Shown here in pieces: positions 7,540-17,064 of a stretch of 45,531 nucleotides of DNA. The stretch covers positions 1-45,531 of the forward strand of contig JBDRUN010000010.1 in assembly GCA_039801365.1 (NCBI GenBank), given 5' to 3'. Source of the stretch: a candidate division WOR-3 bacterium. Lineage in GTDB: Bacteria; Hydrothermota; Tepidihabitantia; Tepidihabitantales; Tepidihabitantaceae. Each line of letters begins with the position of its first letter. Position 1 is the stretch's first letter. Under the pieces are notes generated by a model. That model had not been told where the DNA came from. It was given only the letters and a program-made list of their open reading frames with translations, and did not search any database. The translations under genes were made by a program, and so were the position numbers.

Positions 7540-7857
7540 TCACTTGCCGCAGACTGGGCACTTGTAGTCGGGTGCGCTTGGTGTGGGGTGGGTAGCGTCA
7601 GCCAAACCGCCGTTGCCAATCTGCTTATGATACCAGTAGCAGTGAATACTGTAGCACTCACGCGGGGTGAGGGCAGGCTCGAACCAGAAAAACTGATACT
7701 GGTTCCAGTAGGCTCTAATGGCTTCCCGGAGGTTGGCTTCGGCCCGGCCCACGACCGCTACATGCCTGGGGTCTTTACCCAGACAGTACACCCCGCCCAC
7801 CTTTGTGGGGACAGAAATGTCGATCTGCAGCGGCCTCAGAAGATACGGACCACGCAT
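7540..7857 (-). CDS. Small GIY-YIG-like protein with C-terminal CxxC
   Basis: A 105-residue protein preceded by a perfect AGGAGG six bases upstream of ATG 7857. GVY (22-24) followed by VVGRAEANL (35-43) matches the GIY-YIG nuclease core, with Arg38 at the conserved Arg position. FWFEPALTPRECY (58-70) supplies Glu60 and Glu67 as candidates for the metal-binding Glu, and His72 and His77 follow. The tail CPVCG (100-104) looks like half of a zinc site. The fold call is by pattern; activity and substrate are unknown, and such small proteins can be non-nucleolytic. It stands alone and convergent to the surface protease, and its leader carries a terminator-like hairpin, which suggests regulated read-through. 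Confidence 0.7.
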   Translation of the reverse strand: MRGPYLLRPLQIDISVPTKVGGVYCLGKDPRHVAVVGRAEANLREAIRAYWNQYQFFWFEPALTPRECYSIHCYWYHKQIGNGGLADATHPTPSAPDYKCPVCGK

Positions 7858-7870
7858 TACGCGCCTCCTG

Positions 7871-7897
7871 AAAAACGGCGAGACTGCTCGTCTCGCC
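7871..7897 (-). terminator. Intrinsic terminator in the leader of the GIY-YIG-like gene
   Basis: On the minus strand GGCGAGAC, a 5-base loop and GTCTCGCC make a perfect 8-bp GC-rich stem followed by GTTTTT (7876-7871). It lies between the promoter (7946-7973) and the AGGAGG ribosome binding site at about 7864-7869, so it can only act on this gene's own transcript: a likely attenuator. Confidence 0.65.
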
Positions 7898-7916
7898 CCT
7901 CTGCCGGTCTCTCGAT

Positions 7917-7939
7917 GTAACCCGCGGTTACTTACCGCG
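7917..7939 (-). promoter_or_regulatory. Overlapping alternative hairpins in the leader of the GIY-YIG-like gene
   Basis: Two perfect stems cannot form together: CGCGGT/ACCGCG with a 5-base loop (7923-7939) and GTAACC/GGTTAC with a 3-base loop (7917-7931). They lie just after the predicted transcription start and upstream of the terminator hairpin. Further on, GAGAC around 7908 could compete for GTCTC of the terminator. This has the layout of an attenuator or riboswitch but matches no class I know. Confidence 0.45.
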
Positions 7940-7945
7940 CATCTA

Positions 7946-7973
7946 ATGTTACTACCACAACACCGCTTGTCAA
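7946..7973 (-). promoter_or_regulatory. Promoter of the GIY-YIG-like gene
   Basis: On the minus strand TTGACA (7973-7968), 16 bases, TAACAT (7951-7946). The start of transcription would be near 7939, giving a leader of about 80 bases. A perfect palindrome CCGCTT-GTC-AAGCGG (7963-7977) covers the -35 box and could be an operator. Confidence 0.6.
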
Positions 7974-8112
7974 GCGGCCGCGTTGCCTCACTAAGAATGT
8001 ACTCGAAGCTACCCTGTTGCCTCGGTTGAGAGAGTACTCAAAAGGAGACGTAATTTGCCGAAAGGATTTGGTCAAATGGAACTGACCAATACGTGAGAAA
8101 CAGGCCCTAAGA

Positions 8113-8697
8113 ATGGAGCTGACCCGCCAATGTTCCCCAGCTGACAGAAAGACGAAGGCTGCTATCATCAACCAGGTGACGCGGCTCACCGGATACAACC
8201 GTTTCTACACCACACCCCTGCTGCGGGTTTCCAATCGCCACGTTCTCTTACCGCAGGCCGCCAGCCCACACCTCGTGCTAACCCGCCGCTCCACAGGGCT
8301 ACGCCAGGACTAAGGCCCGGCCAAACCCGCCCCGACGCTCCTGCGGCAGACGCCAACTGTCACTCATGCTGAGCGCCGGACCGACCAGGGTATGTGCAGT
8401 TCGACCTTGTTGATCACAACGGCGGCTGTGCCCGGGGCGAATCCTGTCAACCGCTTGATGTTACACACCGTTATTATAGTGGCTGGACCGAAACTCGGGC
8501 GGTACGCAACAAGGTGCACTGCTGGATGTTTGCCGCGATGCGTGACATTCGGGGCCGGCTGCCCTTTCCCCTAATGGTGATTCACTCGGACAGCGGCCCC
8601 GAATTCATCAATGGGGCGCTATACGAGTATTGTCTGGCGAACGGGCTCGAGTTTAGCCGCTCGCGACCGTACCAGAAGAACGACGACTGCTACTTAA
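8113..8697 (+). pseudogene. Remnant of a DDE (integrase core) transposase gene
   Basis: Pieces of an insertion-sequence transposase occur in two frames. 8113 onward reads MELTRQ and then KAAIINQVTRLTGYNRFYTTPLLR, like the N-terminal helix-turn-helix region of integrase-core transposases. From about 8390, in another frame, PGYVQFDLVDHNGG, SGWTETRAVRNK, GRLPFPLMVIHSDSGPEFI and FSRSRPYQKNDDCY match the catalytic core. The first two acidic residues (Asp in DLVDH, Asp in HSDSG) remain. The usual continuation after the NDDC-type motif, which carries the catalytic Glu, is lost at about 8695, and frameshifts interrupt the middle. The element is dead. AAAGGAGA at about 8040 may be the relic of its ribosome binding site. 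Confidence 0.75.
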
Positions 8698-8804
8698 CTC
8701 GTCCGTTCTCAAGCTGGACGAGGTTTGTGATCCGAATAGAAGTGCATTCTGAGGCGCGGGGCTTAGTACCCTGGATAGGCAACAGGCTCTGCTTCCCAGA
8801 ACGC
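8698..8804. repeat. Two adjacent inverted repeats after the transposase remnant
   Basis: 8698-8722 is CTCGTCC, 11 bases, GGACGAG (perfect 7-bp stem). 8744-8804 is a long imperfect hairpin whose arms start GCATTCTG and end CAGAACGC; read on the minus strand several mismatches become G-U pairs. They begin exactly where transposase similarity ends, and the rest up to 9028 shows no credible gene. They may be an element end or a structured RNA; I tested a tRNA fold and it does not fit. Confidence 0.4.
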
Positions 8805-9028
8805 AGCTTGCGAGATTCTTTCTCTCTTATACGGCCCAACCAAGCGCAACCAGGGGCTACCGAGCATTGGCAGCCGCAGACACTAGGATACTGGGCAAAC
8901 AAAAATGCGATGACTGACGCCCCTCTCTTTCTGACTTGCCGTGCACGCTGGTCTGTGTTGGTGAATCCAAGAATTCAGTTCCCAGCAACTAGCGACCAGC
9001 TTTCACAAGCACAGTTAGTTCATTCAGC

Positions 9029-9056
9029 TTGATTCCCGCTTGGCAAAAGCTATCAT
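9029..9056 (+). promoter_or_regulatory. Promoter of the DUF4321 gene, predicted leaderless
   Basis: TTGATT (9029-9034), 16 bases, TATCAT (9051-9056). ATG 9065 follows after eight bases and has no Shine-Dalgarno sequence, so the mRNA probably starts at the AUG. Confidence 0.5.
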
Positions 9057-9510: not shown

Positions 9511-12500
9511 CTATTCTTCCTGCACGACCAACTTACTAGTCAGGACAACACCACTAGTGATCTCCATCCTCAGGACATACACACCTGCAGGAACTCTCTG
9601 GTTACGCTCGTTGACTGCGTCCCACCGGACTGAATTTCGGCCCGGCAGGGAGGTAGCGTCATATAGCGTCCTGACCAGCCGTCCGGTCCGGTCGTAGACC
9701 CTGAGCCGGACATGGGTCGAGCCGGGTGCTGAGTAACTGATGAGAGCCCCGGTCTTGGTCGGGTTAGGCCAAGCCTGAAGAAGCGGTACGCTCGATGGAT
9801 GGCCGGACTCGGCCATCGTGCCGGCACGCGTTTCCCAAGATCCCGAGACCGATCCGGCCGAATCAGCCGATGGCATGTACTCCCAGAACTCGTTGCTATA
9901 GGAGCCCTTGAGACAGAAGATGGTTGAATCCACCGCGGCCATGGCTGACCCGCGTTTGACTTTGCGGTGCCGACCAGCAATGGCTATAGGAATGCCAGTC
10001 CGCTGAAGCCAGGAATCACCGCCGGCCGTGTTGTAACTCCAAAACTCCTGGGTATTGCCGCCCTTGAGCACATAGAGCGTCTTGTTGAGATAGCTCATCG
10101 AGGCACCAGCCTTCACTCGCTTATTGCGCGGCCCAAGCAGCGAAACCGGGTCTAGCGTGTCAACCCAAGCATTTGTCAGAGGGCTGAAGGCAAAGACGTC
10201 TAGAGTACCCGAACCTCTCATTACGTACAAACGATCCTCGCCGTCATAGACCATGTCTGAGCCATGCTTGCAGGTAGCGAACACGCGGTTCGGATTCTTG
10301 GGCACAGCGATCGGCTGGCCAAGAAGGTCAAGTGGTATTTCCCACCTATTTGTGCTGATGTCGTACCGATAGAAGTTGTTGGAATTATTGCCTGGGATAC
10401 AATACACTGAACCAGCTGCTCCTCGGCTCGGTACAAACGCAATCGCTGCACCCTTCTTAGGAGGTCGGTAGGTCCAGGCGGGGATGTACACCGGAGCCCG
10501 ATGAATCCAGGTGTCAGCGGCAATGTCATAAGCGTAGAAATCAGGCTGGCCACCGGCCTTGATCGCCCATAGGTAACCTTTGTTGCCGTGAAGCGGGTCA
10601 AAGGTCAGGTCGCAGCCGTCCTTGGCCCTCCGACCAGATGAGTCAAGCGGCATCGAACGCAGAGAGTCCCATTTGCCGGTACTGAGGTCATAGCACCACA
10701 GCTCATTGGAGTTGGCCCCTTTCATTGCGTAAAGGCGATTCGTCGTCGGGGCATAGACTAGAGTTGCACTCTTGACTTTGCGGCGGAACCAGCCGAACGG
10801 GATATCTTCGCGCTGGACCCAGGGCGAGGCGATGACCACCTTGGAAATTACGTCATTAGTATCCACTGCGTCGTCGCGCATCGCGGTCGAGCAGGTCACG
10901 GTGTAAGCCCCGAGCGCAAGTGTACACGGCCGGAATGAAACCTCGGCGGAGTCACCAGGTCTGAGGTCGGCGACGATTACAGAATCATCGTATGGAGCCG
11001 GCGTCGGTCGTATGCGCAGAAAGACCTTGATAGTATCGCGCACTGTACCGGCATTCTGAACCCTCGCAACCGGGGTGAGTGGGCCGGGAAACAAGTACCG
11101 GTCAGGGACGGTGATTTCCAACGCCGCAGCATCGCGATAGATCTTGGACAGCCGGATGGCGCGGCCGGCCCGAAGACGGTTGGCGAGACCATTCACAGCA
11201 GAACTCATCGGCGGCCGCGCGTAGAGGTAACAGAGACCATCAGTGCCATCATCGTTTTCAAGTCCAACCGCCGAGTAACGGCCATTGTCAAAGTTCAGGT
11301 CACCGGTCGTGACATCGGCGTACTGGAATAGGATGGACCCGTTTTCGTGCAGTGTCACCTCGAAACTGATAGGCTCCGAGCTATCTCCACCTGGCAGCTC
11401 GCGCCACACGTCCTGCCAGATGACGGTGAAACGGCGATTTGGTTGCGTACCTTCGTTCTTGAAGCAGATGCGGCTGGTGCCGGTCGGATTGCCGACTGCC
11501 AAATTGTCCCACCAAGGATAGATGCAGCGGTTAGGCGGAGTAGGGGCCGGCATGACTGTAGGCAACGATTCATTCGTGCCCTGGTCTTTCCCTAACGCCA
11601 GCCAGCCATTGGTGCAAACGTAGACATAATTGTAGGATGTGTCGTAGTAAGGAAAGTGGAACCCAATCGGCACAAAGATACGGGCTTCGGTTCCAGCAGC
11701 AATAGCGACATCCGCCCCCGCCGTATCAATCCAAGCGTAGGTCGGGCCATCTAAAGTATCGGAATCAATCCAGCCGTAGCCCAGAGTGCTCGCGCCGGTA
11801 TGGACGCCTTTGATAATATCCACCGTAAAACGCTTGTCGTCGTTCTCGGGAACCACATCTGAGCCCAGAGGCAGGACCTGATTGTGAACGATAACCGAGC
11901 AGCGCTCCGAAACCTCTGGTGTCCAAGGTCGGAAGGCTACCAGTGTGTCTGCGCCGTTGGCCAGCCCCTCAATCGGAACTGCATCCCAATAGCGGAGAAT
12001 ATTCCCTGTTCCAAAAATCGAGCAGGTCACCACGAGGTCGGAGAACCGGTCAACAGTAGTCAGGTTCTCAACAAGCGCTGTCGGGATAATGGGCGCATCG
12101 TAAGGTCTCTGCACAAAGTCATACCAGGGCGTGCTAACGAACAGCGTGCGGGCATCAACCGTCGGCGGCACAAGCGCAGTGTGGTTGACGGACGCGCGGA
12201 TCATAATATCGCCCGGCGGAGTCTCCTCCTGACAGGTTCCTGCCCGGTACTGCCAGTACCGACCTGGGTTATTTAGCGTTCCGTCAACACCGAGTCGCGG
12301 GCATTCCGGTGGTTCCCCGACCTGGAAGTAAAATAGGTAGAATCGGCCGGGTGCGTCAAACACAAGTTGTTCACCAACGTCGGCCATAAAGACGGAGTTC
12401 CATCCGTCAGTACCCTCGAGCACCGGCGACTTCCAGTACATCTTACCCGGCCCTCCGCCCGATGCTTCCTTGAATACCGCCAGCTGATAACGGCAGTGCG

Positions 12501-13539
12501 AAGGGTTGGCAGGGCAGTCGAGGTAAACCTTTGCCGACTCCAGGTAGACCGGGTAGGGAGCAGGCGCATCAAAACGCACACCCCAGCCGAAGTGACCGAC
12601 CGGCCAATCACGATAACTGGCTGGAGTACCCCCACAGTAGGACAGATTCTCGGTCCAGGTGACAGTAAAGTAGCGGTCAAGCGTATCATTTGAACGGTCG
12701 TCGTCAAGGGGCGCAGCACACCAAAACTTGATGTAGTAACGGCCAGCCGCAAGTGGAAACGGAGGGTTGAAAAATGTGACTCGCTCCCGCTCGCCAACCA
12801 GAAGCTGAGGTATCACGTCGCTCCATTCAGCAAGCGGATTCATTGCCTCGTCATATAGGCTACATGCCACTGGAATGTTCGTCTCGTCGGTAAGACCAAC
12901 GTTCTGGAACGCGGCACGGGGTTCAAGGTCTCCCGGATACATCGTCGCTCCCGGTACCACAATACGGCGGCACATGACATCGTGTGTAAGCATCGGCTCT
13001 GCCTCAACCCTGACGTCATCAATGCACCACCATTTTATGTTTGCCAGATCACCGTCGAAGACCCAGATGATTGTAACATTCGCCTTGTTCTGGGCGTTGG
13101 GCAGATCAAAGACCTCTGCGACCGAGTCCACATTCTGGTCGTAGTAGTCCCGAAGCGTGTCGAGTGTCACTCCCCCATCAACCGAGTAGCACAGCAGCGC
13201 CTTGTAAGGCCGGGACAGCAAGCGGTTGAACAGCGTCGTGACGTAGAGCCTCACGTTGCGGTACCCGGAACAATTGACCTCGGTAACAAGAGAATCGGGT
13301 GGTGCACCCGGGTACAGATTCCAGAAGATCGCAGCATACGGAGTAGGATTTGTAAGCCACGGTGCGGCGTTCGCCTCCTCACGATGCCAGTCGTCGGAAC
13401 CCTCAGGCGGCGTATAGGATATGCGCCATCCCGTAGGCGGCGACGCTGTGCTCCACGCTGAATTGAAATCCTCGCTCAGCAGGACATCGCCGAGCGTCAA
13501 ACTTGCCAACACGGTCAGACCGACAACAAAACGATACAT
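9511..13539 (-). CDS. Giant secreted protein with Kelch repeats and type IX-sorting-like C-terminus
   Basis: A 1342-residue exported protein of unknown function. A signal peptide (about 1-17, ending TLG) is followed by a jelly-roll-like region (25-180, LLSEDFNSAW... GW) and CARDB-like adhesion modules. A nidogen/choice-of-anchor-like block around 590-780 contains TNGWLALG. Kelch-type propeller repeats occupy about 915-1240 (LWCYDLSTGKWDSL, FYAYDIAADTW, FYRYDISTNRWE, FWSYNTAGGDSW). The last 85 residues, from AWPNPTKTG to YVLRMEI, match the FlgD-like/type IX sorting domain that anchors or exports surface proteins. AAAGGAGG lies 5 bases before ATG 13539. Its promoter is divergent from that of the CARDB protein, suggesting coordinated expression of two surface proteins. 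Partner and substrate cannot be told. Confidence 0.8.
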   Translation of the reverse strand: MYRFVVGLTVLASLTLGDVLLSEDFNSAWSTASPPTGWRISYTPPEGSDDWHREEANAAPWLTNPTPYAAIFWNLYPGAPPDSLVTEVNCSGYRNVRLYVTTLFNRLLSRPYKALLCYSVDGGVTLDTLRDYYDQNVDSVAEVFDLPNAQNKANVTIIWVFDGDLANIKWWCIDDVRVEAEPMLTHDVMCRRIVVPGATMYPGDLEPRAAFQNVGLTDETNIPVACSLYDEAMNPLAEWSDVIPQLLVGERERVTFFNPPFPLAAGRYYIKFWCAAPLDDDRSNDTLDRYFTVTWTENLSYCGGTPASYRDWPVGHFGWGVRFDAPAPYPVYLESAKVYLDCPANPSHCRYQLAVFKEASGGGPGKMYWKSPVLEGTDGWNSVFMADVGEQLVFDAPGRFYLFYFQVGEPPECPRLGVDGTLNNPGRYWQYRAGTCQEETPPGDIMIRASVNHTALVPPTVDARTLFVSTPWYDFVQRPYDAPIIPTALVENLTTVDRFSDLVVTCSIFGTGNILRYWDAVPIEGLANGADTLVAFRPWTPEVSERCSVIVHNQVLPLGSDVVPENDDKRFTVDIIKGVHTGASTLGYGWIDSDTLDGPTYAWIDTAGADVAIAAGTEARIFVPIGFHFPYYDTSYNYVYVCTNGWLALGKDQGTNESLPTVMPAPTPPNRCIYPWWDNLAVGNPTGTSRICFKNEGTQPNRRFTVIWQDVWRELPGGDSSEPISFEVTLHENGSILFQYADVTTGDLNFDNGRYSAVGLENDDGTDGLCYLYARPPMSSAVNGLANRLRAGRAIRLSKIYRDAAALEITVPDRYLFPGPLTPVARVQNAGTVRDTIKVFLRIRPTPAPYDDSVIVADLRPGDSAEVSFRPCTLALGAYTVTCSTAMRDDAVDTNDVISKVVIASPWVQREDIPFGWFRRKVKSATLVYAPTTNRLYAMKGANSNELWCYDLSTGKWDSLRSMPLDSSGRRAKDGCDLTFDPLHGNKGYLWAIKAGGQPDFYAYDIAADTWIHRAPVYIPAWTYRPPKKGAAIAFVPSRGAAGSVYCIPGNNSNNFYRYDISTNRWEIPLDLLGQPIAVPKNPNRVFATCKHGSDMVYDGEDRLYVMRGSGTLDVFAFSPLTNAWVDTLDPVSLLGPRNKRVKAGASMSYLNKTLYVLKGGNTQEFWSYNTAGGDSWLQRTGIPIAIAGRHRKVKRGSAMAAVDSTIFCLKGSYSNEFWEYMPSADSAGSVSGSWETRAGTMAESGHPSSVPLLQAWPNPTKTGALISYSAPGSTHVRLRVYDRTGRLVRTLYDATSLPGRNSVRWDAVNERNQRVPAGVYVLRMEITSGVVLTSKLVVQEE

Positions 13540-13651
13540 CTAAACCTCCTTTACTGTTCACATAGGAGTCACGTAACCCAAAACCGCGGAATAGCGTTGC
13601 CCGCAAAGCCTACCTTGACTTTGTCTGCGCGTAGGTAACCACGGTAATTCA

Positions 13652-13679
13652 ATTATAGACCCAGTCCACGGACTGTCAA
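13652..13679 (-). promoter_or_regulatory. Consensus promoter of the Kelch-protein gene with embedded palindrome
   Basis: On the minus strand a perfect TTGACA (13679-13674), 16 bases and a perfect TATAAT (13657-13652). The leader would be about 105 bases. CAGTCC-AC-GGACTG (13662-13675) is a perfect palindrome filling most of the spacer and touching the -35 box, a good place for a repressor. Confidence 0.75.
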
Positions 13680-13707
13680 CAATACGCTCCTGTCGGCTAG
13701 ACCCCTA

Positions 13708-16455: not shown

Positions 16456-17064
16456 AACCCGGAGGGTTGTGGAACATTCTCTGCAGTCCTCTTGAAAAGT
16501 CTTGCCACTAGGTCAGCGCATGCTGTCTGTGTTGTAGCGATAACAACACCGTACCTTTGCGGCACGGAAACTGAGTAATTCAGGACCAAAAGAGTAGACG
16601 ATAGGCTCGAAAACCTGGTTACATCCGCATGTGGCCAGCGAACTCTCCCTGAAAACGGTACCAGTCCGCATTGCCAGCCCCACACGGAGGCACCGTCTGG
16701 TCTTCGAGGCCTACTGGGTCTGAATGCGACGTCAGCTAACTCATATCCGCATGCGCGCTTCTTTTCAACCAACTGCTACCGAAGCACCGGCTTGGACTCT
16801 GCGCTGCGCCACCTGTTCTAATACCGAAGGCACGATGCGATATCTCCGGTCTGCTGTGACAGGTGTGCTACCGGTTTTCCGTGTCATCTGTTTACCCGGT
16901 TCGCACTCGACGCAGCGAAGGTGCCCAGGAACTGCTGCCAATCTCACTAGTTCGGCTTCTCCCGTTTCCTTGCGCTTTGTCGGCGTGCACAATGCACTAG
17001 TGGTGTGTTTTCGAGGGGCTCGCTGCCAGTTTGCTGTTCGCGGCCCGAGGTAACCAGACCCAGA
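16456..17064. other. 609-base gap without a recognisable gene
   Basis: This lies between two convergent genes. It opens with a short hairpin, AACCC-GGA-GGGTT (16456-16468), without a T-run. Open frames here (for example 16724-17053 plus) have no ribosome binding site, odd composition and no similarity I recognise. I looked for tRNA, tmRNA, RNase P and SRP RNA signatures and saw none. Confidence 0.6.

Follow-up and report, generated by a model that had tools for sequence, protein, structure and literature searches.

Trans-acting base-pairing sRNA regulons exist in bacteria, sRNAs acting on outer-membrane protein mRNAs being one example. Signals of the rRNA leader can themselves be reused in mRNA leaders, as happens in suhB and other mRNAs under boxA/Nus-factor control, which carry a sense boxA that binds NusB/S10 (PMC5725501). 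Within pre-16S rRNA, leader-trailer helices and the boxA and boxC elements have also been described (PMC10250234). The locus considered here lies in a stretch of 45,531 nucleotides from a candidate division WOR-3 bacterium, called the window below. As in sRNA regulons, several mRNAs for envelope or secreted proteins have in their 5' leaders a short site that is complementary to one RNA; unlike in those regulons, the candidate partner is the 5' leader of pre-16S rRNA and not a dedicated sRNA, and its pairing with the mRNAs is a prediction from sequence. As in suhB control, an rRNA-leader signal reappears in mRNA leaders, but the WOR-3 leaders have the boxA region in antisense and not a sense boxA. 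As in the leader-trailer helix, the leader segment GGAUGUAAC pairs with GUUACAUCC, a partner that in the WOR-3 family normally sits in the 16S trailer, whereas the complement described here sits in mRNAs and fits the leader (GGG, anti-boxA) better than the trailer does. In the collection of literature searched, no mRNA leader was described as antisense to a pre-16S leader, the nearest case being the boxA control of suhB (PMC5725501).

The gene that drew attention to the locus encodes a protein of 105 amino acids, which the initial annotation called GIY-YIG-like. This protein matches no Pfam (GIY-YIG included), NCBIfam or PHROG family; its fold bears the description out, since a confident AlphaFold2 model (pLDDT 94.8) found the UvrC GIY-YIG domain as its top PDB matches in Foldseek (1yd6, probability 1.00, E=5e-3). 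At the likely catalytic position it appears to have exchanged E for H (alignment A1, in which the His was placed at the likely Glu by eye). Relatives of the protein occur in 23 of the 147 genomes of the phylum that were searched, and the records that bear a name belong to candidate division WOR-3 MAGs. The viral contigs searched yielded a single relative, which has no leader element. It had also been stated that no minus-strand gene lies upstream, and there is indeed none until the gene ending at 9511. A degraded transposase/integrase-like reading frame (8394-9032, plus strand) lies between the two, and in the G002 orthologue (L010 / L037) a masked repeat-rich stretch with TTTGGGAAGCA-type repeats lies immediately 5' of the GIY-YIG promoter. 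The window promoter has 10 of 12 consensus matches, its -10 being imperfect, and from its sequence the transcript is expected to start near 7938-7941. The leader folds better than its shuffled versions (z = -3.1; 1 of 200 shuffles equally good), and the arrangement first reported for it, a promoter followed by two mutually exclusive hairpins and an 8-bp hairpin with GTTTTT before AGGAGG, is present in full (Table 1). The palindrome seen over the -35 (CCGCTTG-A-CAAGCGG) is likewise there in the window, but it is not conserved in the relatives.

Table 1. Features of the GIY-YIG gene and its leader, and the second complementary box of the window
Feature	Position in window	Strand	Basis and remarks
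-35, TTGACA	7968..7973	-	sequence; TTGACA promoters also precede orthologues
-10, TAACAT	7946..7951	-	16-nt spacer to -35
Alternative hairpin 1, GCGGT-AAGTA-ACCGC	7924..7938	-	sequence; leaves GGGUUAC free
Alternative hairpin 2, GTAACC-GCG-GGTTAC	7917..7931	-	sequence; would hide GGGUUAC
Anti-rRNA-leader box 1, GGGUUACAUC	7914..7923	-	complementary to own pre-16S leader GAUGUAACCC over 10 nt without mismatch
Anti-rRNA-leader box 2, CAGAGGG	7897..7903	-	predicted pairing with rrn boxA CUCUUUG, two G-U pairs
Intrinsic terminator hairpin, GGCGAGAC-GAGCA-GTCTCGCC	7877..7897	-	8-bp stem; sequence and conservation
Terminator U-run, GTTTTT	7871..7876	-	sequence
Shine-Dalgarno, AGGAGG	7864..7869	-	sequence
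Gene for 105-aa GIY-YIG-fold protein, C-terminal KCPVCG	7540..7857	-	ATG at 7857-7855
Second anti-rRNA-leader box, GGGTTACGTG	13570..13579	-	leader of secreted kelch/sorting-domain protein gene 9511-13539

Instead of the alternative hairpins, what the orthologue leaders keep is GGGUUACAUC together with a degenerate CAGAGGG box (window 7897-7923), the latter overlapping the base of the terminator stem in the window leader. GGGUUA is present in all ten orthologue leaders, whose proteins are 34-71% identical, and the second box in most of them. The element reads GGGUUAUCCGAAUUAUCAAAG in sister genera and GGGTTACAGTTATCGGCAGAG in the GIY-YIG leader of G018 (L013; family f2), and four paralogue leaders carry a related GGGTTRCATCC (GGTTACATCC in one). 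A comparison by eye gave no common register for a conserved small stem around GGGUUAC. A sequence-only covariance model of the element held too little information for finding it genome-wide, and a box pattern allowing two mismatches mainly picked up coding sequence, Gly-Tyr codons for example.

When GGGTTRCATCC matches rRNA loci it does so upstream of 16S and on the opposite strand, and the mRNA elements are the reverse complement of the pre-16S leader. From boxA to boxC this leader reads GCUCUUUGAUAAUUCGGAUGUAACCC in the family, boxA being followed by the segment whose usual partner is the 16S trailer. Every rRNA leader recovered in the family contains GCTCTTTGATAATTCGGATGTAACCC or a near variant, and leaders outside the family differ. 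GIY-YIG leaders that match the complement include L008 (GGGTTATCCGAATTATCAAAG) and L006 (TGGGTTACAACGATTATCAAAGAAATTTCTGTAA), and in L006 and L007 the complementarity extends over about 40 nt, through boxA, and stops at the rRNA start. Measured against 5000 shuffles, it reached p = 0.0002, the floor of the procedure, in five of nine GIY-YIG leaders, with low sense controls; the values for L001, L002, L003 and L009 were 0.003, 0.004, 0.04 and 0.12. For the window leader, where the longest contiguous match to its own rRNA leader is 10 nt and the second box is rich in wobble pairs, p depended on the scoring (0.003 with the stricter scheme vs 0.09 with the looser). Among 392 leaders of genome G007 the orthologue leader scored best (17.0; mean 6.4, sd 1.2), the next leader and the best sense score both standing at 10.5. 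In the window the 105-aa gene and the secreted gene at 13539 shared second place among 42 leaders, each scoring 10.0, and the best sense score was 8.0. Leaders L227-L229 contain GGGTTACATCCGAA and GAGCGATA or close versions, which complement the rrn leaders of G007 and G001 over 14+8 nt, and L240 is complementary to the rrn leader of its own genome over 14+6 nt. Predicted duplex energies were better than those of shuffles for the four leaders with a terminator (p 0.002-0.018), and the window leader with its own rRNA leader is predicted at -13.6 to -14.9 kcal/mol, against -6.9 +/- 3.1 for shuffled rRNA; unconstrained RNAduplex over whole leaders was uninformative where leaders are GC-rich. Mimicry of the 16S trailer was considered and rejected, since the mRNA sites have GGG where the trailers of G007 (there GTGTTACATCCG) and G004 have GTG or ATG, and since the sites extend into anti-boxA.

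The idea that the element belongs to the GIY-YIG gene family alone was overturned by matches before genes for secreted proteins. Searches with GGGTTACAT-N-GGCA and with GGGTTAC-N-AAGGAGG matched leaders of large secreted proteins, among them that of the window gene 9511-13539. This minus-strand gene has a leader (13540-13680) with TTGACA/TATAAT, a transcribed part of about 115 nt and GGGTTACGTG followed by AAAGGAGG, and its orthologues in several family genomes have GGGTTACAT at the equivalent place. GGGTTRCATCC has 49 matches in 13 genomes of the WOR-3 family and none in eight outside genomes, compared with three in all 21 genomes for the reversed motif, which served as control. Sorted by hand, the 49 comprise 16 mRNA leaders, two possible ncRNA starts, 11 rRNA leaders, 17 coding sites and three others, the codons for Gly-Tyr-Ile yielding a coding background. 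The mRNA targets are mostly secreted proteins (C25 peptidases, beta-propeller and kelch-type proteins) and also include a GNAT acetyltransferase and the GIY-YIG genes; in G003 the element precedes a C25 peptidase gene, though no GIY-YIG gene of the window's family was found in that genome. A complementary site is thus shared by several unrelated mRNA leaders in a single orientation, the pattern of an sRNA-type base-pairing regulon. A general leader motif of the genome was rejected as an explanation, GGGTTAC occurring only once in 392 sampled leaders. Secreted "anchor" leaders chosen by protein homology are individually weak, and several lack the box. Outside the family, 400 kb of G025 held no anti-leader sites in mRNA leaders, so that no cross-family covariation could be drawn from it.

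Because the element is complementary to the pre-16S leader and is common to other genes, we think it likelier that it pairs with another RNA than that it binds a ligand. On balance we hold it slightly more likely than not, judging from the sequences, that these mRNA leaders form a regulon and that its members pair in trans with the pre-16S leader, either nascent or already released. The main rival is a DNA-binding regulator that recognises GGGTTRCATCC just downstream of the rrn and gene promoters, the RNA complementarity being incidental. Such a regulator would suit a family-specific site common to several promoters, rrn included, and the sites of the short leaders, which lie about 25 bp or less from the promoter. 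However, all 16 mRNA sites and both ncRNA-like starts are antisense to the rRNA leader, the 11 rRNA sites being on the opposite strand, and the mRNA sites are all transcribed, at distances of 7 to about 100 bp downstream of the -10. The match of L006 and L007, spanning boxA and ending at the rRNA start, also speaks against it, as do the differences between sites, which are mostly pair-preserving (19 of 25 hand-aligned differences leave a G-U or Watson-Crick pair; the sequences are related, so that the count is indicative only). One boxA-region base differs between sister species in both partners, the rRNA having CGTTCTTTG and the mRNA CAAAGAA in G009, and the rRNA CGCTCTTTG and the mRNA CAAAGAG in G004. 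This is the one clear compensatory change, and covariation is thin, there being so little variation in the rRNA leader within the family. Orientation, position and the pair-preserving differences together favour RNA pairing, and we consider the DNA-site explanation unlikely, if still a serious one.

What these mRNA leaders contain is the complement of the beginning of their own organism's pre-16S rRNA, a segment that opens with the rRNA start, includes boxA and stops just short of boxC. That a single RNA is matched by sites in many mRNAs suggests the pre-16S leader as the regulator and the mRNAs as its targets, whose expression would then be tied to rRNA synthesis. The putative pairing site stops at the base of the terminator in the window gene and in three relatives, so that pairing could alter termination there; in the remaining relatives the site lies upstream of the Shine-Dalgarno sequence and the effect would be on translation. 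Taken as isolated pieces, the duplexes of the window group are predicted at -25 to -30 kcal/mol, against -14 to -17 for the hairpins. When the whole window leader was cofolded with its own rRNA leader, GGGUUACAUC was paired and the terminator stayed closed, which weighs against the model; an effect of pairing on termination in the window gene is therefore no more than possible. From the sequences we infer pairing in cells, the direction of its effect and termination as the controlled step. Pairing might also serve the reverse purpose, with short terminated leader RNAs binding the pre-16S leader and boxA and so tuning rRNA antitermination or processing. Promoter, antisense element and terminator would in four species give an RNA of about 70-80 nt, and the element does cover boxA; but many unrelated mRNAs with a site for one RNA are the usual layout of targets, and six of the ten orthologue leaders have no terminator, which makes this direction rather improbable.

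The terminator and the alternative hairpins had been read as a ligand- or protein-controlled attenuator. In order of promoter, leader, intrinsic terminator and Shine-Dalgarno sequence, the locus does resemble attenuators and riboswitches, and a single-gene device of this kind, including autoregulation by the GIY-YIG protein, would also make use of the hairpins of the window genome, which exclude each other by their common bases. The terminator pattern by itself is near chance in the region (4 seen vs 3.1 expected), so its support must come from conservation. A G+C-rich stem with a U-run between promoter and Shine-Dalgarno sequence is indeed conserved: of the ten orthologue leaders compared, those of four species (L001, L002, L003 and L009) keep the stem GGCGAGA/TCTCGCC, and GGCGAGA-N3-12-TCTCGCC occurs elsewhere in the 21 genomes at two places only, both coding, which makes it leader-specific. 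The alternative hairpins are not conserved before orthologues, the 5' arms of both being missing in the orthologue leaders. Unlike in attenuators and riboswitches, no conserved aptamer and no conserved pair of mutually exclusive terminator and antiterminator was found among the orthologue leaders. Rfam gave no match to aptamer models in the window at the gathering threshold and only an unrelated match (E=2) among 14 loci at a relaxed threshold, in agreement with the initial annotation, which could name no known riboswitch class. With the element also preceding secreted-protein genes, and the C25 peptidase gene of a genome where the GIY-YIG family gene was not found, the attenuator reading is not supported for this leader, and we regard any such single-gene device as very improbable. 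In the window species, hairpins 1 and 2 may instead expose or hide GGGUUAC as a local refinement. Least credible of all is a leader with no regulatory use, in which a hairpin stabilises constitutively and the conserved 5' sequence plays no part in control: the stem ends 7 nt before the Shine-Dalgarno sequence and could protect the mRNA 5' end, but the persistence of GGGUUA across such divergent proteins and the leader-specific stem speak against it.

If trans pairing is correct, a spacer of the rRNA precursor that is usually taken as processing waste would be a direct trans regulator, envelope and secreted protein output would be coupled to ribosome production without an intermediary protein, and the sites listed here would be the first regulon map for this uncultured WOR-3 family. 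A broader version, which we put forward tentatively and hold to be somewhat less than an even chance, is that the secreted-protein and GIY-YIG mRNAs sense ribosome synthesis by direct pairing with nascent pre-16S rRNA between boxA and boxC, or with pre-30S particles that keep the leader; precursor rRNA would then regulate termination or translation globally and in trans. Pairing gives a falsifiable rule, namely that in each species the mRNA elements should change with that species' rRNA leader rather than staying GGGTTACATCC; it predicts, for example, a near-complement of the L013 leader, such as CTCTNNCGATAACTGTAACCC, in the pre-16S leader of G018, a genome whose assembly yielded no 16S start.

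Several further observations were made in the course of the searches. G004 and G009 contain a possible structured ncRNA of about 270-300 nt (L138 1441-1830, plus strand; L148, minus strand), which has a promoter, the 5' end GGGTTACATCCGAGAGCGGATGTAA, long pairing arms and a terminator-like end, and for which Rfam gave no match. Near 1500-1590 of L227, L228 and L229, in the leader of the GNAT acetyltransferase gene, a large stem GGGATGGCCCA/TGGGCCATTCC encloses GGGTTACATCCGAAGGAGCGATAA, the 14+8 nt complement of the rRNA leader. The 16S gene is apparently a single unlinked transcription unit, with a hairpin and T-run soon after the trailer (L272, L273, L274 and L275). Elsewhere in the window, at 16615-16629 on the plus strand, TGGTTACATCCGCAT, in non-coding DNA without a clear promoter or gene, is complementary to the rRNA leader over 11-12 nt.
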